DNA from: a virus | IMG/VR virus record: IMGVR_UViG_3300047550_004339 | Span: 1 to 26,939 of that record | Strand: one strand, 5' to 3' | Length of the DNA: 26,939 nucleotides | In this document: positions 2-15,238 of the stretch, one piece after another | Position numbering within the stretch: the stretch's first letter is position 1 | How the letters are laid out: the number at the start of each line of letters is the position of its first letter | The notes under the pieces: model-generated | Databases searched by the model: none | Seen by the model: the letters and a program-made list of their open reading frames with translations, nothing else | What the model was told of the DNA's origin: nothing | Program-made: the position numbers and the translations under genes

Positions 2-196
2 GAATCGCCTGAAAGATATGATCGATTTATAGCAGGAACAAATATTCCAATATACAAACTTGAGGTATTAGATGAGCATAAGCCCGATTACTTAATATTA
101 TTTGCTTGGAACTATGCTGAGTTAATAAAGAGTAAGCTAAAAATGTATAATTTTAAATATATAATTCCATTTCCACAAATATATGAAGATAATTAA
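2..196 (+). CDS. C-methyltransferase-like protein, C-terminal end (5' truncated by window)
   Basis: The window opens inside a gene. Reading from base 2 gives 64 residues ending at the TAA at 194-196. The visible part contains PDYLILFAWNYAELI followed by a strand ending in IIPFP. This is the pattern of the C-methyltransferase C-terminal domain (Methyltransf_14), found on SAM-dependent methyltransferases that act on nucleotide-linked deoxysugars. The catalytic Rossmann domain, if present, lies outside the window, so the substrate cannot be read. The gene overlaps the glycosyltransferase start by 14 bases, which suggests translational coupling and a shared role in making a modified glycan. The family call rests on one short domain. 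The protein could belong to a multi-domain sugar-modifying enzyme. Confidence 0.6.
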   Translation, partial: ESPERYDRFIAGTNIPIYKLEVLDEHKPDYLILFAWNYAELIKSKLKMYNFKYIIPFPQIYEDN

Positions 197-2987
197 TGTT
201 ACACCTGGTTTACTCCCAATACCACCAAATGGTTGGGGAGCAGTTGAAAAAATAATATGGGAAACACATCTATGTCTTAAAGAATTAGGATATGATTCAC
301 AAATCCTATACTTAAACGAAATACCATCAGACGCCGACATAGTTCATATTCATGTCGCAAATTTAGCAAACGAAGCACATCAGAAAGGTATCCCATACTA
401 CTTTACGATGCACGACCATCATGCATATCTATATGGTAAAGATTCACATGCTTACCGAGAAAATTTGGAAGCAATAAGAAATGCAAAACGAGCATTTGTT
501 CCGGCAAAGTATTTAGTGGATTGGTTTGAAGGGATACCGGAGTATTTTTCACATGGTGTTAATACCGATTTCTTCCGAAATGATAAAACGCCGACTACAC
601 ACCGACTTCTATGTGTAGCAAATAATGGATTCATACATGACCAATCCGAAGACCGAAAAGGATTTGGATACGCAATAGAAGCAGCAAAACGATTAGGATT
701 ACCGATTACAATAGTTGGACCGGAAAACAATAGAAAATATTTTGAAAAATTCCCGTCAGACTATCAAAAATTAAAAATAGTCTATGGTGCAACTGAAGAA
801 GAATTATTGGAGATATATAAAACACATTCCATATTTCTCCACCCATCCATACTTGAAGCTGGCCACCCCAATCTAACTTTATTAGAGGCGATGGCATGTG
901 GTCTTCCTGTATTAGCAACTTTTGAAGACGACAATGAATTAGAGGGTCTGATACGAATAGAAAGAAATACCGATAGTATAATCAGTGCAATAGCTACAGT
1001 ATTTACTGACTACTCAATGTATAGTAAAATTGCAAGAAATCAGGCTGAAAAACTATCTTGGAAAAATAGAACAATAAAAATGATAAGTAAATATCATATG
1101 AAAAATAGTACAAAAGAAAAAGTTATTTTTTGGCACACCTATTTAGTGGGTGAGTATAAATTAATTTTACAAGAACAAATTTCAAAATTAATATTGTCCG
1201 GTTTATATGATGAGGTTGATTGTATTTATACAGGCATTATATCAAATAATAATGACGATACTAATTGGTTTTTGAATTTACTAAAATCTTACAAAAAATT
1301 TAGTCCAATAGTACATGAAAAAAATGGGTATGAACAATCAACATTAAGATGTTTGCACGAATATGCTGAAAAAAATGATTCGTATATACTGTATTTTCAT
1401 TCTAAGTCAGTATCAAATCCCGGATATCCAAATACACTTGTGAGATGGTTATTAGAATATCATACAATATATAAATGGAAAGAATGTCTTTCGCTTTTAG
1501 ATGAAGGTTATGATGCAATAGGAATTGATTTAAGAATGAATTCTCCTTTAGGAGATTATACTCATTTTAGCGGAAATTTTTGGTGGAGTAAATCATCATA
1601 TATAAAAACATTAGATAAAAAATACATCTATGATACGGAATTATTTGGTGAATGGAATAGATTTTCAGCAGAATTTTACATTGGTGCAAATCCTAATGCT
1701 AAACTTATATCACTTTTTGAGTCTGAACACATAGTACCATTTAATGGTGAAAGCATTATTAGTAAATACCTTAAAGTAAATGAAACACATAAAAAAGAAC
1801 ATAAAAAATTAGATTCAATGAAAGAGAGTTTAATCCACCACTATAACAATACACAGATAATTAATAGAGAATCAAAAAAATACAAGCCAAATATCAATAT
1901 TAATAATGTAGATGGCCCTTTTGTTGAAATAACGGGAGAACAATCTAATAAAAAATATAGAGTTGAATTTATTGATAATATGAGTGGTGTAGTAGAACAT
2001 TCACATGAAATGCCAGTAAATCACTGGACAAAATGTTCAATAAAGTATTTTGTTGATTGGAATATTAGAGTATATGAGGATGGTGTATTAATAGAGGATT
2101 ACCATACCGATTTTAATGGTAAAAATGTGTACATAGCACTTGATTCAAAATCTTTAGGGGATACTTTTGCTTGGTTCCCGTATATGGAAGAGTTTAGAAA
2201 ACAACATGGGTGCAACATCATATGCTCCACTTTTTGGAATGATTTATTTAAATCACAGTATCCTCAATTTAAATTTATTAATCCGGGAGAAACTGCACAT
2301 AATATAGTTGCAATGTATAGTATTGGATTATTTTATGCAACGGATAGTAAATATGATGGATTCAAACATCCAAATAATCCAATTAAGCAACCATTACAAA
2401 AAATAGCAAGCGATATATTAGGACTTGAATATGTTGAAGTCAGTCCTAAAATAAAATCAGTATCTCCAGCTAAAAGGTCAAAACGATATGTGGTTATTGG
2501 AATACATAGTACATCGCAAAACAAATATTGGAATAATCCAAGCGGATGGAAAGAGGTTGTAGAATATTTGAATTCACAAGATATAGAGCCGGTTTTCATT
2601 TCAAAGGAAGGACCGGACTATATGGGCAATCGTTATCCGGATGGAGTGACAACGATAATACCAAATACAATAGAGGAGGCAATGTCATTAATAAATGGTT
2701 CTGAATTTTTCATAGGAATATCAAGTGGACTATCTTGGTTAGCATGGTCATTAGGTAAAAAGGTAGTTATGATATCTGGCTTCACAGAAATCTATAACGA
2801 ATTTACAACAAATTGTGTTCGTATAATAAATGAATCGGTATGCCATGGCTGTTGGAATAGAACAAAATATGACCCAGGTGATTGGAATTTCTGCCCAGAC
2901 CAAAAAGGAACACCAAGACAATTTGAATGTACAAAAAGTATTACGGGACAAGATGTGGTATTGGAATTAAAAAAATTATTACAATAA
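183..2987 (+). CDS. Three-module glycosyltransferase: GT4-like, HxK-type and BAHT-like O-heptosyltransferase modules
   Basis: This 934-residue protein has three apparent modules. Residues 1-305 look like a GT-B, GT4-type glycosyltransferase: the N-terminal strand is followed by a Gly-rich GWGAVE loop, and EAGHPNLTLLEAMACG (from E225) is the nucleotide-sugar binding region. Residues about 310-560 contain YFHSKS (H406) and SGNFWW, seen in some bacterial sugar-transfer proteins; I cannot assign the activity. Residues about 568-934 resemble the autotransporter strand-loop-strand O-heptosyltransferases (TibC/AAH-like), with VDGPFVEITG, SKSLGDTFAWFPYMEEF and four Cys (C887, C890, C904, C916) in the CHGCW...CP...FEC pattern that binds iron in TibC. 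That family moves heptose from ADP-heptose to Ser. No autotransporter is visible here, so the acceptor may be a virion protein or host surface. The start overlaps the upstream gene by 14 bases. Confidence 0.75.
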   Translation: MKIINVTPGLLPIPPNGWGAVEKIIWETHLCLKELGYDSQILYLNEIPSDADIVHIHVANLANEAHQKGIPYYFTMHDHHAYLYGKDSHAYRENLEAIRNAKRAFVPAKYLVDWFEGIPEYFSHGVNTDFFRNDKTPTTHRLLCVANNGFIHDQSEDRKGFGYAIEAAKRLGLPITIVGPENNRKYFEKFPSDYQKLKIVYGATEEELLEIYKTHSIFLHPSILEAGHPNLTLLEAMACGLPVLATFEDDNELEGLIRIERNTDSIISAIATVFTDYSMYSKIARNQAEKLSWKNRTIKMISKYHMKNSTKEKVIFWHTYLVGEYKLILQEQISKLILSGLYDEVDCIYTGIISNNNDDTNWFLNLLKSYKKFSPIVHEKNGYEQSTLRCLHEYAEKNDSYILYFHSKSVSNPGYPNTLVRWLLEYHTIYKWKECLSLLDEGYDAIGIDLRMNSPLGDYTHFSGNFWWSKSSYIKTLDKKYIYDTELFGEWNRFSAEFYIGANPNAKLISLFESEHIVPFNGESIISKYLKVNETHKKEHKKLDSMKESLIHHYNNTQIINRESKKYKPNININNVDGPFVEITGEQSNKKYRVEFIDNMSGVVEHSHEMPVNHWTKCSIKYFVDWNIRVYEDGVLIEDYHTDFNGKNVYIALDSKSLGDTFAWFPYMEEFRKQHGCNIICSTFWNDLFKSQYPQFKFINPGETAHNIVAMYSIGLFYATDSKYDGFKHPNNPIKQPLQKIASDILGLEYVEVSPKIKSVSPAKRSKRYVVIGIHSTSQNKYWNNPSGWKEVVEYLNSQDIEPVFISKEGPDYMGNRYPDGVTTIIPNTIEEAMSLINGSEFFIGISSGLSWLAWSLGKKVVMISGFTEIYNEFTTNCVRIINESVCHGCWNRTKYDPGDWNFCPDQKGTPRQFECTKSITGQDVVLELKKLLQ

Positions 2988-3067: not shown

Positions 3068-5419
3068 ATGGCAGAAAAAATCGTATCACCAGGCGTTTTC
3101 ACAAGAGAAAATGACCTAACATTTTTACCGCAAGGAGTAGCAGCCATAGGAGCTACTATCATTGCACCCTTCAGCGAAGGCCCGACCGTACCTACGGTTG
3201 TAACCTCCGTTGCAGACCTAGAGAACTGGTATGGTAAAGCAGATGACAACTATTATGGTCCGTTAGCTGCAAGATATTACCTCAGCGAAGCAGGACAAGT
3301 AACCGTTTGTCGTGTATCCGGAAGAAACGGATATACCGAAACAAACCCCCTTCTTTTAATATATTCTGGAAGTGCAGGTGGACCCAAAGCATTGGGTGTA
3401 TTATTTAATACCGATGCAGAAGCAAATCCTTTCACAAAAGAATTAGCAATTAACGGAAATTTTACAACAGTGGCTTATCAGGGTGCTTCAGTAATCTCTG
3501 GTACTGTAAACACAACTTCTACTACTGATTGGGGATTTGGTCTTTCCGGTTCTTATTTTGGAACAACATTTAGCGCATCACTATATGCAGCTGCATCAAA
3601 CAATGTAAAAGCAGCATTTGGTACTTTCCCTAAAAATCAGGGTAAAGAAGCATATTCATTTGCATTCTTTGGTGCTACCGCACAAACAGGATTATTTACT
3701 AGTGCAGGAACTAATGCACATATATCAGGCGCTATTCTCTTTAGCCAGAGCTTCTCACAAAGCGCACAGCCAGCATATACTCCTGTAATTCAGTCACAAC
3801 TTTCTGGTGGTGACAGAACTACACTTCTTCAATTCTATACACTTGGAGCAGGTGAAGCTACTAACACAAAAGTTAAAGTTAGTATCTATAACATAAAGCC
3901 TTCTGGAATTATTAATGGTTCTGACTATGGTACATTTAGTGTACTTGTAAGAGCGTATTCTGATACCGATAAGAAAAAAGAGGCTTACGAATCTTATTCA
4001 AACCTTACCCTTGACCCTTCATCTCCGAACTATGTTCTACGTGTGATTGGTAACCGTTCCAAAGTATTGGCGGACAATGGTAATGTAACTGAATATGGTG
4101 ATTATCCTAACTTCTCTAAATATATCCGTTGCTGGAACGAAGGTGACTCTACTTGGGTAGCAGCAGAATCAATACCTGCAACCGCAGTTCCTTACGCACA
4201 TGCACCTTATAAGTTAATGGTGTCAGCATCTACTTATTTCAGCGGATTGATTCCGGCTGTAACATATGTTAACGCTAGTTCAACTGTGTTCGGTGGTATT
4301 GACCTTGATAACAATGAAGATAACGCAAACTATCAGAGACCTATACCAATTGGAGCATCTTCTGGTTCTAACGTAGCATTCTCTCTTGACACTACTTGTG
4401 GATATACCTTATCTGGTTCACTACAAAATGATGTTAATAAGAGAAGATTTACTGTAGCATTCCAGGGTGGTTTCAATGGTCAGAATCCTACCAGATTAAC
4501 TAACAAAGCTGCTGATATTTCCGCAACCAATACACAAGGTTTTGATGTGTCTACAACCACATCCGAAGGATATCTCGCATACTTAGCACACATAAATGCA
4601 CTTACAAATGCAGACGAATATGATACCAACCTCGTTGTAACTCCTGGTCTAATCAGAAGCGTACACTCTACGCTCGTTGACAAAGTTCTTGAGATGGTTG
4701 AAAATCGTGGTGATTGCTTCTACATATTAGATGCAGTAGGATTTAGTGGAACTATTGAGGATGTAAACACTCAGGCTCAATCACTTGATACCAACTACGC
4801 AGCAATTTACTATCCTTGGGTAAAAGCAGTTAACCCTGTAACAAGCAAAATTATAGCAGTACCGCCTTCAGTATTGATGCCCGCAGTATACGCTGCAAAC
4901 GACCGCATCACCGCAGAATGGTACGCACCCGCAGGTTTGAATCGTGGTGGACTTAGTGGAGCAGTAGCAGTTGTCACCAAACTCAATCAGAGTGACCGTG
5001 ATACCTTATACGAAGCAAAAGTTAACCCTATCGCTCAATTCCCTGGTCAGGGTATTGTAGCATTCGGACAGAAAACCTTACAAGATAAATCTTCCGCACT
5101 TGATAGAATCAATGTTCGCAGATTACTATTAACGGTTCGTAAGTTCGTAGCTTCCGCATCCCGCTACTTGGTATTTGAACAGAACACATCTGAAACTCGT
5201 CAGAGATTCCTCAATATCGTAACTCCTTACTTGGAGGGCATTCAGCAAAGACAAGGTCTCTACGCATTCCGTGTACAGATGGATGAAGCTCTAAATACAG
5301 CAGATATGATTGATAGAGGTATATTGAAAGGTGCAATTTTCTTACAACCCACAAGGACGGCAGAATTTATAATTGTAGACTTCAATATTCTTCCTACAGG
5401 AGCATCCTTTGGAGCATAA
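3068..5419 (+). CDS. Tail sheath protein (T4 gp18-like)
   Basis: This 783-residue protein is the contractile tail sheath subunit, which polymerises around the tail tube and shortens on infection. The N-terminus (SPGVFTRENDLTFLPQG, then IGATIIAPFSEGPTVPTVV) and the C-terminal domain carry sheath hallmarks. The C-terminal marks are WYAPAGLNRG, a VNPIAQFPGQGIVAFGQKTL segment, an INVRRLLLTVRKFV helix and a terminal VDFNILPTG strand. It is longer than T4 gp18 (659 residues). The extra length lies in the central part, residues about 100-470, which is Ser/Thr/Gly-rich and probably forms surface-exposed insertion domains. The ATG follows an A-rich leader with TTAAAC and no Shine-Dalgarno site. The tube gene follows after 50 bases and ends at a terminator. 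Confidence 0.93.
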   Translation: MAEKIVSPGVFTRENDLTFLPQGVAAIGATIIAPFSEGPTVPTVVTSVADLENWYGKADDNYYGPLAARYYLSEAGQVTVCRVSGRNGYTETNPLLLIYSGSAGGPKALGVLFNTDAEANPFTKELAINGNFTTVAYQGASVISGTVNTTSTTDWGFGLSGSYFGTTFSASLYAAASNNVKAAFGTFPKNQGKEAYSFAFFGATAQTGLFTSAGTNAHISGAILFSQSFSQSAQPAYTPVIQSQLSGGDRTTLLQFYTLGAGEATNTKVKVSIYNIKPSGIINGSDYGTFSVLVRAYSDTDKKKEAYESYSNLTLDPSSPNYVLRVIGNRSKVLADNGNVTEYGDYPNFSKYIRCWNEGDSTWVAAESIPATAVPYAHAPYKLMVSASTYFSGLIPAVTYVNASSTVFGGIDLDNNEDNANYQRPIPIGASSGSNVAFSLDTTCGYTLSGSLQNDVNKRRFTVAFQGGFNGQNPTRLTNKAADISATNTQGFDVSTTTSEGYLAYLAHINALTNADEYDTNLVVTPGLIRSVHSTLVDKVLEMVENRGDCFYILDAVGFSGTIEDVNTQAQSLDTNYAAIYYPWVKAVNPVTSKIIAVPPSVLMPAVYAANDRITAEWYAPAGLNRGGLSGAVAVVTKLNQSDRDTLYEAKVNPIAQFPGQGIVAFGQKTLQDKSSALDRINVRRLLLTVRKFVASASRYLVFEQNTSETRQRFLNIVTPYLEGIQQRQGLYAFRVQMDEALNTADMIDRGILKGAIFLQPTRTAEFIIVDFNILPTGASFGA

Positions 5420-5469: not shown

Positions 5470-5958
5470 ATGGCAGAAGTATTAGAATATGACAAAATGT
5501 TTTACAAGAATTGGGAACCGAAACTTTCAAACAGGTTCATCATGGAAATCAATGGTATTGATTCCTATCTTGTTAAGACGGCAAACCGTCCTACTGTAAC
5601 ATCCGAAGTTGTGGAATTAGACCACATCAACATTAAGAGGAAAATAAAAGGAAAGACTAGCTGGGATGATATGACTCTCTCACTATACGACCCGATTGTT
5701 CCCTCTGGAGCACAACAGGTAATGGAATGGATTAGACTATCGCACGAAACAATTACTGGTCGTGATGGATACGCAGCTTTCTATAAGAAAGATATCAATT
5801 TCAAAATGTTAGGCCCCGTTGGTGACGTGGTTGAACTTTGGGTAATCAAAGGTGCATTCATTACTTCCGCCAATTTCGGAGATATGGATTGGTCTGGTAA
5901 TGACCCGATGATGGTTGAAATCACTTTAGCATTCGATTACGCTATACTAGAATACTAA
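5470..5958 (+). CDS. Tail tube protein (T4 gp19-like)
   Basis: This 162-residue protein is the inner tube subunit of the contractile tail; T4 gp19 is 163 residues. The sequence begins with an acidic/aromatic segment (LEYDKMFYKNWEPKLSNRF) and then MEINGI. It continues with an alternating beta pattern, the LYDPIVPSGAQQVMEW segment typical of gp19, and a terminal VEITLAFDYAILEY strand. It lies directly after the sheath gene, the normal order in T4-like and many other contractile phages. The ATG is followed by GCA (Ala), like most structural genes here. A strong intrinsic terminator lies 27 bases after the stop codon. Confidence 0.9.
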   Translation: MAEVLEYDKMFYKNWEPKLSNRFIMEINGIDSYLVKTANRPTVTSEVVELDHINIKRKIKGKTSWDDMTLSLYDPIVPSGAQQVMEWIRLSHETITGRDGYAAFYKKDINFKMLGPVGDVVELWVIKGAFITSANFGDMDWSGNDPMMVEITLAFDYAILEY

Positions 5959-5984: not shown

Positions 5985-6019
5985 AAAAAATCTCCTCATT
6001 TCGGTGGGGAGATTTTTTT
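5985..6019 (+). terminator. Intrinsic terminator after sheath-tube unit
   Basis: The 11-base arm AAAAAATCTCC (5985-5995) is fully complementary to GGAGATTTTTT (6008-6018). The stem extends inward with wobble and Watson-Crick pairs to a TTCG loop (6000-6003), and the T-run continues to 6019. The symmetric A-run and T-run could allow some termination on the other strand too, but no minus-strand gene needs it. It separates the abundant sheath and tube mRNA from the less abundant chaperone and tape measure genes. Confidence 0.85.
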
Positions 6020-6073: not shown

Positions 6074-6901
6074 ATGAGCGAAGACAAATCAATTGAAAAG
6101 CAAGTTACACGTGGTATTCAACCACAACAATCAACTCCTCAACCTAAAAAATCATTTCCATTTCCAACAGAGGTTATAAGCTTACCATCAAAGGGGCTTG
6201 TATATCCCGAATCAAATCCCCTATCAAAGGGTGAGGTAACGGTTAAATTGATGACTGCAAAAGAAGAAGATATTCTTACATCATCAAATCTAATTAAAAA
6301 AGGAGTTCAGCTGGATAAATTGTTAGAAGCAATTGTAGTTGAGCCGGGCGTAAATCCAGGTGATTTAATTATAGGAGATAAAAATGCAATACTTGTTTCA
6401 TCACGTATATTGGCATTTGGTGCGGAATACGAGGTTACGATAAATGACCCCGAAGAGCGTACTCCTGTTGAAATTACTATTGACTTATCTAAAATAAAAG
6501 TAAAAGAAGTAGACGAATCATTACTTAACAGAGAAAATGAATATGAATTTGAATTACCAGTATCAAAGACTCCTATTAAATTCAAATTATTAACACACGC
6601 TGATGAGCAGGCAATATCAAAGGATGTGGAAGCTAGTCAGAAGGTCGCTAAACAGGGTAATGAAATAACTACTCGTTGGAGAAAAATCATTACAGAAGTT
6701 AATGGTAGTAGAGATTTGGGTATTATTAGTAATTTTGTATCAAATCAACTACTAGCAGGAGACTCAAAAGCACTTCGTAAGCATATGACAAAAATATCTC
6801 CGGATTTAGACCTCACATTTGAATATACATCCCCATATACGGGCGAGACGGAGGCGCTAAGAATACCGTTCGGAGTTGGCTTTTTTTACCCTGCCGACTA
6901 A
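6074..6901 (+). CDS. T4 gp26-like baseplate/tail assembly protein (probable tail assembly chaperone, short form)
   Basis: This 275-residue protein matches the pattern of the T4_baseplate family (gp26). A Pro/Gln-rich N-terminus is followed by SLPSKGLVYPESNPLSKG, then VTVKLMTAKEEDILTSSNLI, KLLEAIVVEPGV, and a C-terminal FEYTSPYTGE segment ending in RIPFGVGFFYPAD. In T4, gp26 is needed for baseplate hub assembly. Here the gene sits between the tube and tape measure genes, the position of G/GT-type tail assembly chaperones in many phages. Its last codons cross a T7 run (6881-6887) and overlap a +1-frame ORF, so a fraction of ribosomes could make an extended product. The family call is fairly firm; the chaperone role is inferred from position and architecture. 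Confidence 0.75.
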   Translation: MSEDKSIEKQVTRGIQPQQSTPQPKKSFPFPTEVISLPSKGLVYPESNPLSKGEVTVKLMTAKEEDILTSSNLIKKGVQLDKLLEAIVVEPGVNPGDLIIGDKNAILVSSRILAFGAEYEVTINDPEERTPVEITIDLSKIKVKEVDESLLNRENEYEFELPVSKTPIKFKLLTHADEQAISKDVEASQKVAKQGNEITTRWRKIITEVNGSRDLGIISNFVSNQLLAGDSKALRKHMTKISPDLDLTFEYTSPYTGETEALRIPFGVGFFYPAD

Positions 6902-7100
6902 TTATAGCGTAGTACTGCACAGCCAAATTTTTCAAATGATATATTTTTCCAATGGAGGTTTCAATTGGAATGATCTCTATTATATGCCCACACGGCTTAG
7001 AGAATTTTATTGGCGAGAACTGCTAAGTACCAAAAAGCAAGAAAACGAAGAAGTCAGACGGGCAAATAAAAAATCATCAAGTAGAGTAGCCCGTAGATAA
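6876..7100 (+). CDS. Small ORF, probably the frameshifted C-terminal extension of the gp26-like protein
   Basis: This +1-frame ORF is open from 6861 (TAA at 6858-6860) to the stop at 7098-7100. Independent initiation looks poor. The only upstream candidate is a TTG at 6876 with GGAG almost touching it, and the first ATG (6936) would cut into the conserved-looking region. The peptide reads HSQIFQMIYFSNGGF, then DLYYMPTRLREFYWREL, then a charged Lys/Glu/Arg-rich tail. The pattern Pro-x-x-Leu-Arg-x-Phe-Tyr followed by a charged helix recalls the T part of GT-type tail chaperones. I infer that it is translated mainly as a fusion with the gp26-like protein through a +1 or -2 shift at the T7 run. 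A separate small protein remains possible. Confidence 0.6.
   Translation: MAFFTLPTNYSVVLHSQIFQMIYFSNGGFNWNDLYYMPTRLREFYWRELLSTKKQENEEVRRANKKSSSRVARR
6881..6887 (+). other. Candidate slippery site for +1 (or -2) ribosomal frameshifting
   Basis: Seven T residues are read GGC TTT TTT TAC in the gp26-like frame and TTT TTT ACC in the +1 frame. The run lies inside the 41-base window where both frames are open (6861-6901), four codons before the zero-frame stop. A Phe-tRNA on TTT at 6884-6886 can re-pair perfectly on TTT after a +1 or a -2 move. I see no convincing downstream hairpin or pseudoknot. Confidence 0.5.
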
Positions 7101-7141: not shown

Positions 7142-7408
7142 ATGCGTAAAAAAAAGATATTGGTAAGAGAATCGCAGATTAGAAAACTTTCTGAATTAAT
7201 AAAAAAAGCTATACGAAAGGAAGAGAAAACTGCTCCATATATTCAAAGATTGCAGGCAAAATATCCTGAGTCTGCTGAAAAATGGCAAAAGTTTAATGAT
7301 TTAACTATAGCCATGCTTACAAAGCAAATGCAAATTGCTAGTAGTAGAGGAGATTACAAAAGAGCCTGGGAAATAGGAGATGAAATAGCAAAAATTTATT
7401 CAAAGTAA
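7142..7408 (+). CDS. Small basic helical protein of unknown function
   Basis: I do not recognise this 88-residue protein. It starts with a very basic segment (MRKKKILVRESQIRKL) and appears helical throughout, with SELIKKAIRKEEK and a C-terminal RGDYKRAWEIGDEIAKIYSK. No Cys, signal peptide or membrane segment is present. It has its own putative promoter and lies 15 bases before the tape measure gene. That slot in contractile phages often holds tail-assembly factors, so a role in tape measure folding or tail assembly is plausible but not shown. The start is an ATG after an A-rich stretch, as for neighbouring genes. Confidence 0.7.
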   Translation: MRKKKILVRESQIRKLSELIKKAIRKEEKTAPYIQRLQAKYPESAEKWQKFNDLTIAMLTKQMQIASSRGDYKRAWEIGDEIAKIYSK

Positions 7409-7423
7409 TTATAAACTTCAATA

Positions 7424-10400
7424 ATGGCCAAAATAAAATCTTCTGGTAGTTCGGATAAGAAAGAGGAATACAAAATTCAACAGGCCGAACGCAGTTTGCT
7501 TTTAGAAATACAAAAGATTGAAGATGGTCAAAACGAAGCTGCAAAAGAATTACTTAAAACTTATCAAAAATTACATGAACTAAGGGAATCTGGCGCAGAA
7601 GATACAGATGAGTATGCTGATTTATTAGATAAAGCAGAGGATTTATTAGATGCTCAAGAGGATGGCGGAAAAGCTTTAAAGGCACAACTATCTGAATATA
7701 AAAAGCAAGAAAAAATTCTTGAGAATATAAGACAAAGACGAAAAGAAAATCAAGAATCATTAAGAATTGAATTAGAAGACCAATCCTCAATAACACGAGA
7801 ATTAAATAAGCAAAAAAATACACTTGGAGAAAATACTGATTTGTATACGGCATCGGCTGCCGCTGCTGCTTCTGTAGCAGCCAATATTCAGGGATGGTCT
7901 AGCGCATTGCAAGACAGTATATTAGGGGAAAATAAAGAATTTAGACAATCTATAATTTCAATGGGTGATGCTCTAAAAGAATCAACCACGGAAATGGTCT
8001 CAATTAGTACCCAAATGCAATCTGGTAAACTTGAAGGAGGGATTAAGTCAGCATCGGAGAAAATTAACAGTTCAGTAGAGAGTTTACGAGATAAGATGAA
8101 TGAAATTGATTTAGAACCATTTCGTTCGGAATTAGTACAAGTAAATAGTGATATATCTAAATTATTAAGTCAGCCTGGTGCTGCCGAAGCAGTGGTCAAT
8201 GCTCAGAAATCAAGAGACTCATCATTACAATCTTTGTCAAATCTAAAACAGCAGCAAGAAGAAGATATAAAAGAAATAGTTGCATTAGAACAAGAACGAG
8301 GAATAGCAATTGCTTCTGGAAATAAGGAACAAGCCGAAGAAATAAAGAAAATACTTGAAGAGCGTAAACGAAAGCATCAAGAGGTAGGAGATACTATAAT
8401 TGCTGAAGAGCAGAAAATACAACAATCATATGAACAAGAACTTGAGTCTATAGCACCAAACCTTGCTGCTTTGGAAAAAAGACGAATAGCCCTTGATAAA
8501 GGAATACAAGCTGGCGAGCAGCAGATTGCTACTACAAAACAACAAATAGACTCATTAGAAAAATATAATGATGGAATGAAGGATGCCGCCACACGCGTTG
8601 ATATGGTTGGTAAATCCTTAGATGCTTTGTCGGAACACCTTCCAGCCGGCCAGGAACTTGTGAATGTTATAAAAGGCGCAGTTGATGGTTCTATGGATTT
8701 GAAAATGCTTGAAGCCGGCATAGTAGCCGTTGGTGCAGCTTTAGGATCTTGGGCAGGAAAATATATATTTGCAGAATGGGATGTTGAAACAAAAACGGCA
8801 AACGACCTTGCAATAAAGAAAATTCAACTTGAAGAAGATGTAGCAAAACTCAGATATGATAACGCAAAATTTCTGCAGGATTTTGAATATGATGGAGAAA
8901 ATTATCTCGGAAAATTAGGATTAGAGTTATTAGAGAGAGAGGTAAATTACAATTGGGATCGCTACAAACAGGAAATGAAAATTCAGGACCTGAAAACAAA
9001 AGGTAGTGCAGAGCAGGGAAAAATATTAAATGAAATTAATGCAACAAATAGAGAAGCAGCATTATCATACCGCGTTCAATCACAATCAGCTTTATTTGGT
9101 AAAGGAATAGGTTCTGTATCTTATGCAAAAGATGGTCTTGCGTTGGCCGGCGTTAATGCGGATAAATTAGCAAGTACTATAGCTGATGCATCGCTTAGTA
9201 TGGGTCAAATGCCTACTGCTCAAAATGCAGCAGATATGGCAGTGTTTGCTAATAGATTGGGACTATCAGGAAATGTATTGCCTGATATAGTAAAATCTTT
9301 AGAATTATCACAAGGATTTTCAGCAGAAACTGCAACAAATGTAGCTGCAGGATTGGAGAGTATGGCCGAACAGGCGAATATCAATCCAAACAAAATGTAT
9401 GAAGACATTGCCAAAGCATCTAAAGAGATGTACAAATATGGCATTAAAAATGTTGGTGCATTAGGAAGACAGGTTGCATACGCACAATCCATGGGACTAA
9501 GCTTTGATAAGATATCAAAGATGGGTGATAGTATGGTGCTGAATTACCAAGACAGTATTAAAGCTGAAATGGAATTAAGTGCCTTAATGGGTGAACAAGT
9601 AGATTTATCGGGGGTTAGAGCAGCAGCTGCGGCAGGTGGACCGGATATGGTTCAAAATATGATAGCCGAAATGCAAGCAACTGGAATTGATGTTGCAAAT
9701 ATGAATAAGTTCCAACTACAGGCGTTGCAAAAAGCTATACCTGATATGGACATCCAAGAAATAGAAAAAATGGTAAAGGGTGGTGGAGTGGATGTTGCAG
9801 AAGCCGGTGCAAAAGATGTAAAGCAGATAAATGAAGCAACGATTAAGCAGAAAAGAATAGAACAAGTTCAACAAGCAATCGGTTCAGCTCAAATACAGGC
9901 TGACAAAGTTTATTTAGATTTGAAACTTGATAAAGAAATAGCAGATAAGCAAACAAAATCAGAAGGACGTAAGAAATTTGAAGAAGAATCAACTGAACTT
10001 GAAGCTCAAAAACTTAGAAGTGAGTACGGAAAAGAAGCAAAATATAAAACCGATGATACAAGTGGTTATGTAAAGGGTGAAGCTGAAAAGGCTAGAAAAG
10101 AATTAATGAGGCCACTAACTGAAGGATTTGGCAATCTATTTGGTACAGTTGCCGGCGGGTTGACAGCATATATAACCCGAAAACCTTTAGCAGGATTATT
10201 GAAATCAGTAGTACCACAAATTGAAGCGCCTGGTGCTGGGGCCGCCGCAACACCGGGAGCAGCACCTGCTCCAACTGCTGCTGGCGCTGCGCCGGGAGCT
10301 GCACCAATTCCAACCGTAGCACCTACCAGCGGTTCAACCGCAGGACCAATTCCTGCGGCCGCGCCACCTCCTGAACCAACTTCTATACAAGAGGCAGTAG

Positions 10401-13400
10401 CAGCAAAAGCAGATGAAGTAAAAGCAAAAGTAGGCGAAAAAATAAATGAAAAAGTAGATGCTGTAAAAGGAAAAGTAGAGGAAAAAATAGATAAGTTAAC
10501 TGGGGCAACACCTTCTACTGCGGCTGCTCCTGAACCAACCGCTGCGGAAGAAACGGTAGGTAAAAAAGGTAAAAAAGCCAAAGCTAAAAGAAAAAAAGGA
10601 GGCGAAATAGCTGCAACAGAAACGGCACCAGGACAAAGTCCATATAAAGGAATGGGTAGGTCTGAAAAAGCTATGGCACAACCACGTGGTAAGGGTGGCA
10701 GGTTTGTATCCGGCCCTAAAGCAGCTGCACCAGCCGCAGCTGTACCGGGTCAAAGTCCATTTCAAGGAATGAGCCGTTCTCAAAGGGCAGCAGCTATGCC
10801 AAGAGATGCGAAAGGTAGATTTATGGCAACACCAAGAACTTTACCGACTGCAGGTGGATTTGGGGCAGGAGTAGGGGCACCAATGATGCCTTCTACGCCT
10901 TCAATGGCCGCGGCACCACCACCGGCGGTACCAGGCACATCAACGGGTAAAAAAGGTAGTAGAGCAAAGGGTAAAGGAGCAGTTGATGGTGGATTACTTG
11001 GTACATTTGGAGCAGGAATAGGGCAGGCCGGTAAAGGTATTGGTACATTTTTAAGTTCAGTAGGAAAGGGAGCCGGAAAAGCAATAGAAGGAATTCTTAA
11101 AGGAATTGGAGCAGGATTAAAAGTATTTGCAGATCCGTATGTTATACTTGGTGCCGGTGGATTGGCTCTTGTTATAGCACAGGTGGGAGCTGGGCTTGCG
11201 GCTGCATCGTGGATAATGGGTAAAGCATTACCTACTCTTGCTGAAGGGTTTAAATCATTCAATGATGTAAATGGAGAAAACCTAAAAAATATAGGTAGTG
11301 GCATGCTTCAGATGGGTGCCGGTATAGCCGCATTTGGTGCGGGTTCAGTTTTAGCCGGTATAGGTGGATTAGTACAGGGTGCAGCTTCTTTACTTGGTGC
11401 AAAAAGCCCATTGGAGCAGTTTTTAGAATTTTCTAAAATGGATTTTGGAGACCCGGCTAAAGTAAAGGCAAACGCAGAAGCATTTGCTGCATTTGGCCAA
11501 GCAATGGCAAAAGCTGGAGCAAGCCAAGGAATTGCCGGAATTGGTACATTTGTATCTGGTGTTAGTGAGGGATTGTTATCAATGTTTGGTATGGGTGTTA
11601 AATTACCATATGACCAATTCAGAGAATTTGCGCATATGGATTTTGGAGACCCTGTAAAAGTAAAAGCAAATGCAGAAGCTTTTGGTGCATTTGCAGAAGC
11701 TATGGCAAAGGCTGCTGGAGCTCAGGGAGCCGGCGCTGCTAGCGGATTATTTGGTGGAGTCGCAGAGGGTATAATGTCATTCTTTGATAAAAAAATTCAA
11801 TTACCGTATGACCAATTCAGAGAATTTGCGCATATGGATTTTGGAGACCCGAAAAAAGTAAAAGAAAATGCAGAAGCAATGGGTGCTTTTGGTGAAGCTA
11901 TGGGAAAAGTAGTTGCAGGAGGACAGCCTAGCGGTGATATTGTAAGTGGCATTTTTAACACATTAACTTCTGCATTTAAGACAAAAGCAAAACTACCATA
12001 TGAACAATTCCAAGAGTTTGCTTATATGGATTTTGGAGACCCGAAAAAAGTAAAAGCAAATGCAGAAGCCTTTGCAGCTTTTGCTGAAGCATTTTCCAAA
12101 GCGTCTTCTGCACAAGGAGATGCCGCTGTATCAACTTTTGCTGAAGGAGTTTTGGGTGGTATAGGAGAATTTCTTGGGGCTAAAGATCCTATACAAAAAT
12201 TTGTAGAATTTTCATTTTTAGAAATAGGCCCCAATGCCAAAGTAAACGCTGAAGCATTTGTTACATTTAGTGAGGCAATGGCAAAATATACCGGAACTAA
12301 TCAGGGAATGTGGGGAACTATTACTGAACATGTTGGTAACTTTTTAAGAAACGAAGACCCTATAAAGAAATTCACAAGATTTGCAGGTCTTAAAATAGAT
12401 GGAGAAAAAGCAAAAACTAATGCAGAAGCATTTGTAACATTTTCAGAAGCACTGTCAAAGTATACTGGAACTAATCAGGGAATGTGGGCAACGATTACTG
12501 AAGGGGTTGGTAGATTTTTAGGTAATGAAGACCCTATAAAGAAATTCGCAAAATTCTCAAGGCTTAAAATAGAAGGAGAAAAAGCAAAAATTAATGCAGA
12601 AGCATTTGTACTATTTAGTGAAGCACTGTCAAAATATACCGGTACAAATCAAAGTATGTGGGGAACTATTACCGAAGCAATTGGTAGATTTTTAGGGAAT
12701 GAGGACCCCATAAATAAGTTTGTAAGATTCGCAGGATTAAAGATAGATGGTGTTAATGTAAAAAATAGCGCAGAGGCTTTTGTAACATTTAGCGAAGCAT
12801 TGTCAAAATATACTGGCACAAATCAGGACATTTGGGGAACGCTTGCAGAAGGAATTGGTAACTTTTTAGGTAACGAAGACCCGATTAATAAATTTGTAAG
12901 ATTTGCAGGATTAAAAATAGATGGTGTTGCTGTTAAAGCAAATGCAGAAGCCTTTGTAACATTCAGTCAAGCATTATCAATGTACACAAATACCAATCAG
13001 GGTATGTGGGGAACTATTACCGAAGCAGTTGGTAACTTTTTAGGTAATGAAGACCCGATTGATAAATTTGTAAGATTTGCACAACTACAGATAGATCCAC
13101 TAAAAGCATTTGGAAATGCATTAGCATTTTCAGAATTTGCTCGTGCATTAGGCGGATATGAAGGATCTAATCAGGGTATGTGGGGAACTATTACCGAAGC
13201 AGTTGGTGACTTTTTAGGTAACGAAGGGCCCATTGAAAAATTTGTAGAGTTTTCAAAAATTGACATAGGCGATCCTGTAAAAGTAGGACAAACAGCAAAG
13301 GCCTTTGCTGAATTTTCAAAAGGATTGTCACAATATAAGGGTACTGGTGAGGGATTGGGTTCTCAAATATGGAGTGCGGTAAGCGGCTTTTTTGGTGGAG

Positions 13401-15238
13401 GTGGCGCAGATTTTAGTGATATATACACACAATTTCAGGAATTTTCTTTCTTAAAAACAGGAGATAAAGCACTTGAAAATGCTCAAGCATTCTCATTATT
13501 TGCAGGTGCCATAGCATCATATAAAGGAGTATCTGGAAATGAGGGGGGAATAATAGATGGAATAATGAGTTTCTTTAGTGCTGGCCAATCAGACAAAAAT
13601 AAAGCGGAAGCTGATGCGCTTTGGTTAAATGCTTTAATAGATAAATTCAGACAATTTTCTGAAGCAAAATTAGGCGATACCACAAACTTAAAAAAGAATG
13701 CAGAAGCATTCACTTTATTTGGAAATGCAATATCATCTTTTAAGCCATCGGAAACAGCAACCGATAGAATATTAGATTCAATAAATAACTTTTTCTTTCA
13801 TGATAATAAACCGCTCACATCGGAAGAGGAGGCCGCAGCATTTTTAGAACCATTATTTGCCAAATTCCATATGTTTGCAGACGCCGGACTTGGTGAGAAG
13901 AGTGAAGCAGTTAAAAAGAACGCAGAAGCATTCATTACATTTTCAGAAGCATTAGCTAAATATCCACAACAACCAGCAGGATTCTGGGACGGAGTTGGCG
14001 ATTTTTTCTCGGGACTAGGTAATGTACTCAATGCACTGTCTGGACAGGAGGCAGCAGAAAATCCAATAACTATGTTACAACGGTTTGCCGATGTTCACAT
14101 TAGCAAAGAACAAACTGAAACTAATGCGTACGCATTAATTTCATTGGCTAAGAGTCTTACTAATTTTAGTGGTTATAAGGACTCAATAAGCGGCGCATCG
14201 GAAACCGCTACCATAGCAATGCAGGCTTTAAATATACTACTTGACCCAAAGACGGGTATTAGCGTAAGCAAATCCGATAAATTAAAAAATTCCGGAGATG
14301 GCCTGCTTAATTTAGCAAAAGCTTTTAAAACCTTTGAAGGCGTTAATTTTACCCTCGCAGCTACATCATATAAAGCGATGATAGAGGCAATGAATACTGT
14401 AAAAATAGAGGATGCAACTATTGAACGAATCAAAAATTTTGCTGGAGCATTTGAACCATTGGTTGGTACAATGCGTAGTGTGGGTCAATCGGAAAAAGCT
14501 AATACATGGCTTGGAGGACTCCTTCAGGATGTAGGTATTGGTAAAAAACAAAATAATGTTGTCAACGCATTAGATATAATGCCGAGAATGGCCGACATGT
14601 TAACAAAATTCTCAGTAGCAATTTCTAAGCTGCAACCGGAGAGTATGAAACAGCTTGCAACATCATTGGTATCTTTAGTTGGTCCAATGTCAGCACTATT
14701 TAATGAAGATGTATTTGACTCAAAGGTAGCAAGCTCTGCTTGGGGGATTGCATTAAGTGTAGTTACCTTAGATAAGGTTGTCACAGAAAACCTTACAAAA
14801 AGATTACAGAAATTTACAGGTTTAACTGGTAGTATTCAAACTATGGCTACAGCAGTATCTGAGTTGGCGGGTGCATTCAAAGCATTAAGTTCTGCGGCGG
14901 TAGGACCTACAATTACCGCAACTGGTAAAGGCGGCCTCGGGTTCGCATCCGGCGCAACAGTTGCTTCAAAAGTTGGATCGGCACCGATAAAATCGGCTAG
15001 TCAAAAAATTGACCTCATGGTTGATAACCTTCAAAAGATAAATGAAAACACAAAGGCAACAAAAGAATTAACAAAAGCTATGGTACAATTAGCTGCTGCA
15101 ACATATGAAGGGTATGATAAACAATCCGGTACAACACTTAAAATATCTGGCAAAGATATATTATTGGTAGCGGGAAGAGCAGCTGGTGCGCAAAAGACAC
15201 AAAAGCAAACAACATATACTAACTTTGATAATATCTAA
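7424..15238 (+). CDS. Tape measure protein, very long, with about 15 internal repeats
   Basis: This 2604-residue protein sits in the tape measure position between the tube/chaperone and baseplate genes. Residues about 10-390 are charged, heptad-rich coiled coil. Residues about 540-810 form a helical region containing the GKGIGSVSYAKDGLALAG segment. Residues about 934-1060 are Ala/Pro-rich, with an amphipathic Lys/Glu helix and a basic KKGKKAKAKRKKGG patch. Two hydrophobic Gly/Ala stretches (about 1237-1266 and 1290-1325) could cross a membrane during DNA injection. Residues about 1329-2250 are tandem repeats of 57-72 residues. At the usual 0.15 nm per residue, the whole protein would span about 390 nm, far longer than the T4 tail; processing or a non-stretched terminus would reduce this. 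The start is ATG-GCC after ATAAACTTCAATA. Confidence 0.9.
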   Translation: MAKIKSSGSSDKKEEYKIQQAERSLLLEIQKIEDGQNEAAKELLKTYQKLHELRESGAEDTDEYADLLDKAEDLLDAQEDGGKALKAQLSEYKKQEKILENIRQRRKENQESLRIELEDQSSITRELNKQKNTLGENTDLYTASAAAAASVAANIQGWSSALQDSILGENKEFRQSIISMGDALKESTTEMVSISTQMQSGKLEGGIKSASEKINSSVESLRDKMNEIDLEPFRSELVQVNSDISKLLSQPGAAEAVVNAQKSRDSSLQSLSNLKQQQEEDIKEIVALEQERGIAIASGNKEQAEEIKKILEERKRKHQEVGDTIIAEEQKIQQSYEQELESIAPNLAALEKRRIALDKGIQAGEQQIATTKQQIDSLEKYNDGMKDAATRVDMVGKSLDALSEHLPAGQELVNVIKGAVDGSMDLKMLEAGIVAVGAALGSWAGKYIFAEWDVETKTANDLAIKKIQLEEDVAKLRYDNAKFLQDFEYDGENYLGKLGLELLEREVNYNWDRYKQEMKIQDLKTKGSAEQGKILNEINATNREAALSYRVQSQSALFGKGIGSVSYAKDGLALAGVNADKLASTIADASLSMGQMPTAQNAADMAVFANRLGLSGNVLPDIVKSLELSQGFSAETATNVAAGLESMAEQANINPNKMYEDIAKASKEMYKYGIKNVGALGRQVAYAQSMGLSFDKISKMGDSMVLNYQDSIKAEMELSALMGEQVDLSGVRAAAAAGGPDMVQNMIAEMQATGIDVANMNKFQLQALQKAIPDMDIQEIEKMVKGGGVDVAEAGAKDVKQINEATIKQKRIEQVQQAIGSAQIQADKVYLDLKLDKEIADKQTKSEGRKKFEEESTELEAQKLRSEYGKEAKYKTDDTSGYVKGEAEKARKELMRPLTEGFGNLFGTVAGGLTAYITRKPLAGLLKSVVPQIEAPGAGAAATPGAAPAPTAAGAAPGAAPIPTVAPTSGSTAGPIPAAAPPPEPTSIQEAVAAKADEVKAKVGEKINEKVDAVKGKVEEKIDKLTGATPSTAAAPEPTAAEETVGKKGKKAKAKRKKGGEIAATETAPGQSPYKGMGRSEKAMAQPRGKGGRFVSGPKAAAPAAAVPGQSPFQGMSRSQRAAAMPRDAKGRFMATPRTLPTAGGFGAGVGAPMMPSTPSMAAAPPPAVPGTSTGKKGSRAKGKGAVDGGLLGTFGAGIGQAGKGIGTFLSSVGKGAGKAIEGILKGIGAGLKVFADPYVILGAGGLALVIAQVGAGLAAASWIMGKALPTLAEGFKSFNDVNGENLKNIGSGMLQMGAGIAAFGAGSVLAGIGGLVQGAASLLGAKSPLEQFLEFSKMDFGDPAKVKANAEAFAAFGQAMAKAGASQGIAGIGTFVSGVSEGLLSMFGMGVKLPYDQFREFAHMDFGDPVKVKANAEAFGAFAEAMAKAAGAQGAGAASGLFGGVAEGIMSFFDKKIQLPYDQFREFAHMDFGDPKKVKENAEAMGAFGEAMGKVVAGGQPSGDIVSGIFNTLTSAFKTKAKLPYEQFQEFAYMDFGDPKKVKANAEAFAAFAEAFSKASSAQGDAAVSTFAEGVLGGIGEFLGAKDPIQKFVEFSFLEIGPNAKVNAEAFVTFSEAMAKYTGTNQGMWGTITEHVGNFLRNEDPIKKFTRFAGLKIDGEKAKTNAEAFVTFSEALSKYTGTNQGMWATITEGVGRFLGNEDPIKKFAKFSRLKIEGEKAKINAEAFVLFSEALSKYTGTNQSMWGTITEAIGRFLGNEDPINKFVRFAGLKIDGVNVKNSAEAFVTFSEALSKYTGTNQDIWGTLAEGIGNFLGNEDPINKFVRFAGLKIDGVAVKANAEAFVTFSQALSMYTNTNQGMWGTITEAVGNFLGNEDPIDKFVRFAQLQIDPLKAFGNALAFSEFARALGGYEGSNQGMWGTITEAVGDFLGNEGPIEKFVEFSKIDIGDPVKVGQTAKAFAEFSKGLSQYKGTGEGLGSQIWSAVSGFFGGGGADFSDIYTQFQEFSFLKTGDKALENAQAFSLFAGAIASYKGVSGNEGGIIDGIMSFFSAGQSDKNKAEADALWLNALIDKFRQFSEAKLGDTTNLKKNAEAFTLFGNAISSFKPSETATDRILDSINNFFFHDNKPLTSEEEAAAFLEPLFAKFHMFADAGLGEKSEAVKKNAEAFITFSEALAKYPQQPAGFWDGVGDFFSGLGNVLNALSGQEAAENPITMLQRFADVHISKEQTETNAYALISLAKSLTNFSGYKDSISGASETATIAMQALNILLDPKTGISVSKSDKLKNSGDGLLNLAKAFKTFEGVNFTLAATSYKAMIEAMNTVKIEDATIERIKNFAGAFEPLVGTMRSVGQSEKANTWLGGLLQDVGIGKKQNNVVNALDIMPRMADMLTKFSVAISKLQPESMKQLATSLVSLVGPMSALFNEDVFDSKVASSAWGIALSVVTLDKVVTENLTKRLQKFTGLTGSIQTMATAVSELAGAFKALSSAAVGPTITATGKGGLGFASGATVASKVGSAPIKSASQKIDLMVDNLQKINENTKATKELTKAMVQLAAATYEGYDKQSGTTLKISGKDILLVAGRAAGAQKTQKQTTYTNFDNI
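10631..10834 (+). repeat. Duplicated GQSPxxGM...GRF motif within the tape measure gene
   Basis: Two copies of a 29-residue unit start 39 residues apart (G1070 and G1109). Both share GQSP, GM, RS, PR and a closing GRF: GQSPYKGMGRSEK...PRGKGGRF and GQSPFQGMSRSQR...PRDAKGRF. The segment between coiled coil and hydrophobic regions is low in complexity and basic. The unit could bind DNA or a tail component, but no function is shown. Confidence 0.7.
11408..14170 (+). repeat. Tandem protein repeats in the tape measure gene (about 15 units, core period 58 residues)
   Basis: Units begin with P-[IL/Y]-x-[QK]-F and continue with KxNAEAF and a FSEAL-type helix. First-residue positions are 1329, 1395, 1461, 1525, 1589, 1646, 1704, 1762, 1820, 1878 and 1936. 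The early spacing is 66, 66, 64 and 64, then 57, then exactly 58 (174 bases) five times. Units 5-10 share YTGTNQGMWGTITE and FLGNEDPI and look recently amplified. Units 11 onward are more divergent and variable in length. Confidence 0.9.

Follow-up and report, generated by a model that had tools for sequence, protein, structure and literature searches.

Tail assembly chaperones (TACs) of the G/GT frameshift family, reportedly described by Xu, Hendrix and Duda in 2004, are exemplified by gpG and gpGT of lambda, a short product and a frameshift-extended one encoded directly 5′ of the tape measure gene, with the extension reached by a −1 shift. In T4-like phages, frameshifting is said, in the abstract of a 2022 study by Vladimirov and colleagues, to be kept in several groups, with genes 26 and 51 replacing it in T4. 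The locus considered here lies in the IMG/VR virus record IMGVR_UViG_3300047550_004339, of which positions 1 to 26,939 (26,939 nucleotides (nt), the whole stretch of DNA analysed, hereafter the window) carry a gp26-like gene overlapped by a small open reading frame (ORF). A +1 programmed frameshift on a Phe codon very probably fuses the gp26-like protein, as the N-terminal chaperone part (TAC-N), to a helical C-terminal part (TAC-C), 5′ of the putative tape measure gene. The source is a T4-like virus, probably of Bacteroidota bacteria.

TAC genes have been identified in T4-like phages (Vladimirov, Gautam, Davidson 2022, Virology 566:9, via PMC12846349 and PMC10885494), poly-T −1 signals are known in T4-like TAC-N genes (PMC12846349, citing Vladimirov 2022), and some T4-like phages have a short gene together with a separate long fusion gene (PMC10885494, citing Vladimirov 2022). 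A review gives examples of −1, −2 and +1 shifting, the last from haloarchaeal HSTV-2, and excepts T4 (PMC5009743). An earlier note on this DNA, made from the sequence alone, had called a frameshift in gp26-type genes not well described; to the extent that the citing papers convey the 2022 study, both the short/long chaperone pair and frameshifting in T4-like chaperone genes are already published. The present locus resembles the T4-like TACs (gp26/gp51) in its PF12322 family and in the scheme of a short form and a long form with a C-terminal extension, but differs from T4 in having one gene instead of two, and from the −1 signals given by the papers citing Vladimirov 2022 in its +1 phase and its upstream GGAGG and stem-loop. 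It resembles lambda and the G/GT family in making short and putatively frameshift-extended products directly 5′ of the tape measure gene with a conserved phase, although the putative shift is +1 rather than −1 and the likeness considered is one of arrangement. The elements of the locus are as follows.

6074-6901, + strand: gp26-like gene, putative short chaperone (TAC-N, or G part), 275 amino acids (aa); PF12322 T4_baseplate, E 4e-9; phrog_150 baseplate hub, E 5e-14
6850-6854, + strand: GGAGG, a Shine-Dalgarno (SD)-like element starting 31 nt ahead of the T run
6861-7100, + strand: whole +1 ORF, 79 codons after the TAA at 6858-6860
6863-6876, + strand: stem-loop position; ATCCC-NNNN-GGGAT in relatives, ATACC-GTTC-GGAGT with one A·A mismatch in the window
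6878-6880, + strand: GGC codon preceding the T run; third base never T in the +1 clade
6881-6887, + strand: putative slippery site TTT TTT T, from the window sequence, clade conservation and distant relatives
6888-7100, + strand: stretch that shifted ribosomes would translate in the +1 ORF, stop included (the tail part); putative TAC-C or T-like domain, from clade conservation, the ratio of nonsynonymous to synonymous substitution (dN/dS) and a predicted helical domain with a predicted local distance difference test score (pLDDT) of at least 90
6899-6901, + strand: zero-frame TAA, end of the short product

The gp26-like protein scores 36.8 bits against PF12322, above the curated cut-off of 24.5, and its frame crosses the run as GGC TTT TTT TAC CCT GCC GAC TAA. 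As the earlier note had described, T7 lies at 6881-6887 within the 41 nt (6861-6901) over which the gp26-like and +1 frames are jointly open, and the zero-frame stop follows four codons on. T7 runs are not rare as such (42 in the window on both strands vs 48.7 in shuffles), and the coding strand has only two, at 6013-6019 (intergenic) and at 6881-6887 (within the gene); the latter goes beyond chance because its phase and sequence are conserved across loci. Two IMG/VR scans yielded 154 loci, 153 of them with the site and the window counted once, and statistics were taken on 70 representatives at 80% protein identity, which are still phylogenetically related, so that their P values should be taken as a guide only. 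At every locus with both parts, the +1 phase is the one in which the small ORF lies, and TTT TTT T occurs in 152 of the 153, the sole exception being L037 with TTC TTT T (TTC TTT TAC). Three further scans with divergent tails gave 98 loci, some of whose contigs recur between scans, with T7 in 97, and among seven loci from mostly Flavobacteriales bins of metagenome-assembled genomes, six have T7 and one has T8. The two Phe codons at the site are TTT in 139 of 140 cases among the representatives, compared with an 83% TTT background. The conservation of run and phase that the earlier note proposed to check in homologous phages is present, while the natural single-ORF fusions that it also suggested were looked for within the clade and no intact one was found. 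One contig (L229:880-1720) does carry both parts in one ORF, but only because an internal deletion has removed the gp26 C-terminus; a defective genome or an artefact of assembly is the probable cause.

The tail part is under purifying selection (median dN/dS 0.16; third positions account for 49% of differences). On its own it matched no PHROGs or Pfam family. Judging from the aligned relatives, it has no conserved start of its own. In the window, candidate starts of the +1 ORF are limited to TTG 6876, ATG 6936 and ATG 6984; in 19 of the 70 representatives, no ATG, GTG or TTG occurs from the +1-frame stop up to tail codon 16, and in seven there is none ahead of tail codon 28, yet the residues preceding tail codon 16 are conserved, and conservation sets in right at the T run. 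The earlier observation that the small ORF lacks a credible start is thus borne out across the clade. Homologues with an ATG of their own, which the note had named as evidence to the contrary, are absent from the window's clade and do occur in two distant phages, Cygsa01 (TAATG) and S-SCSM1 (ATG after the stop). In Pseudomonas phage Cygsa01 (L179:2800-2985), the two parts are separate ORFs, and a TAATG stop-start overlap replaces the slippery site.

The direction of the putative shift can be examined in more distant relatives. Those with the +1 phase appear to shift at the same Phe-Phe codons, at sites that are interrupted in immuto (TTT CTT TGG), LR756508 (TTT CTA TTC) and SagM-GXN1 (TTC TTT CGT), and that read TTT TTT AGT in LIS04, TTT TTT CAC in SP-15 and TTT TTT TGG in RM378 and Mel-JY01. 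All of these fit UUU→UUY re-pairing one base forward, and at the +1 sites seen, the P-site tRNA can re-pair from UUU to UUU or UUC; in the window, a slip on either Phe codon would give the identical product, in which GVGFF is followed by TLPTNY. The −1-phase relatives examined comprise the cyanophages S-CAM8, S-RIM8 and DSL-LC02, Vibrio phage Bakedbeans, Xanthomonas phage XacN1 and the huge phage LR756511; in all six, a T stands ahead of TTT TTY and completes the heptamer of classical −1 sites, T TTT TTY. Across the +1 clade, by contrast, T precedes the run at none of 153 loci and in none of the 66 representatives that are informative, where codon usage would lead one to expect 44.6, and therefore no T TTT TTT (−1) heptamer forms. 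The X XXY YYZ pattern of −1 sites is thus absent from the clade, where the phase is +1 at all loci. As for the individual −1 genomes, the site in LR756511 (L161, ~3690-3780), a 595-kb phage belonging to the same family, is GGT TTT TTC, with a longer zero-frame stretch beyond it. In the cyanophages S-CAM8 (L177), DSL-LC02 (L292), S-RIM8 (L293) and S-SCSM1 (L176), annotation has either missed TAC-C or given it as a separate ORF that begins at an internal ATG and is called hypothetical or a "baseplate hub assembly catalyst"; in three of these four genomes, T TTT TTC would give access to it through a −1 shift.

Upstream of the run, two elements are conserved far beyond coding need, the stem-loop less uniformly than the GGAGG. 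The latter is present in 52 of the 70 representatives, against 1.5 expected from synonymous codon resampling, starts exactly at −31 in 50 of them, and requires the rare codons ACG (6% of Thr) and GAG (14% of Glu). The 27 nt ahead of the run have a mean minimum free energy of −6.7, compared with −3.6 in the synonymous control, with p < 0.05 in 35 of 70. In the main stem, ATCCC/GGGAT, 92% of cells are paired, as against at most 59% when the arms are slid, and the stem is complete in 38 of 57; Gly at −9 is encoded by GGG in 41 of 55 (3% background), and the wobble-wobble pair −16/−7 covaries modestly (31 Watson–Crick vs 23.7, P 0.006). The 3′ arm ends 2-5 nt ahead of the run in most relatives. 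Among the distant +1 phages, the stem is clear in LR756508, SP-15 and Mel-JY01, but not in immuto, SagM, LIS04 and RM378. The earlier note mentions neither the GGAGG nor the stem-loop, nor does it remark that T is strictly avoided ahead of the run. Huang et al. (2018, PMC6321510) showed with 70S ribosomes that +1 shifting is stimulated, and −1 shifting attenuated, by a hairpin that lies against the E site and acts as a mimic of an internal SD. This result makes the arrangement here interpretable: the hairpin likewise abuts the E site and may be predicted to have the same two effects. It should be noted that the published system is an artificial reporter, whereas the present arrangement is natural and conserved, its role being a prediction. 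The locus also resembles E. coli prfB, which encodes release factor 2 (RF2), in the proposed +1 slip of a single P-site tRNA and in the SD-type duplex upstream, but differs in that the A-site codon is UAC, UGG or UUU and in that the GGAGG lies ~27 nt upstream, with the stem-loop between.

Other routes to the same frame have to be weighed against a +1 slip. A −2 frameshift on the T run, as known in phage Mu (PMC5009743), would give the same phase with one extra Phe, and on an intact T7, the P-site UUU can indeed also re-pair two bases back; in L037, immuto, LR756508 and SagM, however, the −2 codons mismatch the P-site tRNA while +1 UUU→UUY re-pairing matches, and the remaining upstream features fit +1 better than −2 (PMC6321510). 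RNA polymerase slippage at T7, which would alter the length of the mRNA and so open the +1 frame, would be served by a homopolymer T run in an AT-rich genome, but several +1 relatives lack a long run (TTTCTTT, TTTCTATTC, TTCTTTC) and are poor slippage templates, and the run is kept at exactly seven, with T avoided before it and an A or G standing after it, where slippage would gain from longer runs. Both are disfavoured, since interrupted runs leave +1 as the sole re-pairing option and T never occupies the position ahead of the run; −2 shifting is unlikely and transcriptional slippage very improbable. Of the +1/−2 shift claimed in the earlier note, the +1 alternative is the favoured one, and the relatives with interrupted runs speak against the −2.

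Alternatively, the small ORF might be a gene in its own right, with initiation either at TTG 6876 by means of a split SD or at ATG 6936, or else through stop-start coupling. A split SD composed of GGAGG and a hairpin has a precedent in T4 gene 38, the codon equivalent to TTG 6876 is TTG in 28 of 70 representatives, the folded hairpin would put the GGAGG ~8 nt from it, and the TAATG overlap and own ATG of distant Cygsa01 point the same way. That codon is nevertheless a stop in 19 of 70, of which 14 retain the GGAGG; a start 4-12 nt downstream of the GGAGG, in any frame, is found in only 2 of 52; and the 19 representatives with no start before tail codon 16 sit poorly with the conservation of residues there, beginning at the T run. 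Split-SD initiation at TTG 6876 was rejected, and a separate gene is quite unlikely. That a decayed gene or a sequencing error split one ORF is practically negligible: homopolymer runs are error-prone, but about 250 assembled loci from many samples share the phase and T7, with codon-level purifying selection on either side, and the phase and T7 counts had already refuted it.

With the strongly favoured +1 frameshift, most ribosomes would terminate at 6899-6901 to give the 275-aa short form (TAC-N), while a fraction would slip one base forward, with Phe-tRNA on UUU then U within 6881-6887 re-pairing without loss, and continue to 7100. The resulting 341-aa long form (TAC-NC) would carry ~70 extra residues as a helical C-terminal domain. 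The GGAGG and stem-loop, refolded behind the ribosome, would probably favour the forward slip, and the non-T base ahead of the run would block −1 slippage. From the sequence, we infer both that the shift occurs and that its rate leaves the short form in the majority; the +1 phase, T7 and coding selection support the joining of the gp26-like protein to the small ORF that the earlier note proposed. If the pair works as gpG and gpGT do in lambda, the tape measure protein may be coated by the short form, with the tube protein recruited by the long one. We lean slightly towards a broader reading, in which +1 shifting in a large Bacteroidota T4-like clade would take place with neither a stop nor a hungry codon in the A site and would be driven by a composite upstream signal (GGAGG, E-site-abutting stem-loop and a U run never preceded by U), T4-like relatives would shift −1 at the same Phe codons when the preceding base is T, and direction would be set by that base and the upstream duplex.

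A chaperone function is suggested by homology with T4. T4 gp26, which we take from its naming and our own profile matches to be the short form, and gp51, presumably the long form, both match PF12322 and are evidently paralogues. T4 has two PF12322 genes, whereas ten of the single-gene, frameshift-type records have one each, as do immuto and Mel-JY01 by tblastn only. T4 gp26 ends at its own EFF motif, and gp51 continues for ~48 residues that MAFFT aligned to the tail part; hhalign of the tail part against gp51 C-terminal pieces gave P 1.3e-4 over 33 columns, these pieces being used because the full gp51 profile gave nothing useful, with the fused proteins included. Both T4 proteins appear in PMC3004832 under hub assembly chaperones, and gp51 is needed although the particle does not contain it. 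The predicted fold of the fused protein has a mean pLDDT of 89.7, and its tail part forms three helices. In VIA-align, the HK97 tail assembly chaperone 2ob9_B ranks first (97 of its 104 residues, root-mean-square deviation 4.3), but at a Z of 4.7, too low to be decisive; Foldseek against PDB returned nothing at E <= 0.001 (2ob9_B at E 3.4), and a BFVD structure search brought up baseplate hub proteins of T4-like phages, SP-15 among them. The surroundings, in the order sheath, tube, gp26-like gene, tail part, small ORF and 2604-aa ORF, include the following genes.

3068-5419, + strand: tail sheath; phrog_23, E 2e-64
5470-5958, + strand: tail tube; phrog_4542, E 1e-30; PF06841, E 4e-8
7142-7408, + strand: small 88-aa ORF separating the chaperone from the long gene; matches the UVR motif weakly, PF02151, E 6e-5
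7424-15238, + strand: inferred tape measure, 2604-aa ORF, from its size and position; the homologous position is annotated as tape measure in immuto and LIS04

The earlier suggestion that the gp26-like protein and the small ORF form a G/GT-type chaperone fits both this position between the tube and tape measure genes and the T4 homology. Mel-JY01 has an ORF of similar size where the window has the 88-aa ORF. Directly 5′ of the sheath gene lies a 934-aa ORF (window 183-2987), a putative glycosyltransferase by reading of the sequence.

Several points weigh against the frameshift, the proposed role of its upstream signal or the T4 link. The A site holds no stop or obviously slow codon, unlike that of RF2. 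The window's own hairpin is weak, imperfect and no better than the control (p = 0.59-0.67), and the GGAGG is missing in about a quarter of the representatives, so that neither element can be strictly required. Some upstream structure is also found in the −1 users XacN1 and LR756511, for which reason the hairpin as a clean separator of +1 from −1 was rejected. S-SCSM1 has its tail in the +1 phase despite a T before the run, with an ATG after the stop; its locus (L176:3160-3240) reads T TTT TTC, and the ATG lies ~23 nt past the stop. Finally, no C-terminal match emerged when hhalign compared the tail part with the full gp51 profile, and the link between the two depends on a C-terminal set (A2) that includes cyanophage and Vibrio tails.

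As far as the available literature shows, with the 2022 study seen through citing papers, three features are new, namely that this clade shifts in the +1 direction, that T is excluded from the position ahead of its run, and that GGAGG and the stem-loop are conserved. If the reading is true, the T4-like chaperones would constitute a family, found in nature, whose homologous genes take the +1 or the −1 direction at identical codons, with rules of direction that are readable and testable, and they would offer a natural use of an upstream hairpin and SD as a +1 stimulator. Small ORFs annotated as "hypothetical" or "baseplate hub assembly catalyst" in many T4-like genomes would then be explained as the C-terminal halves of chaperones, and the little-understood gp26 and gp51 of T4 would be tied to the tail assembly chaperones.
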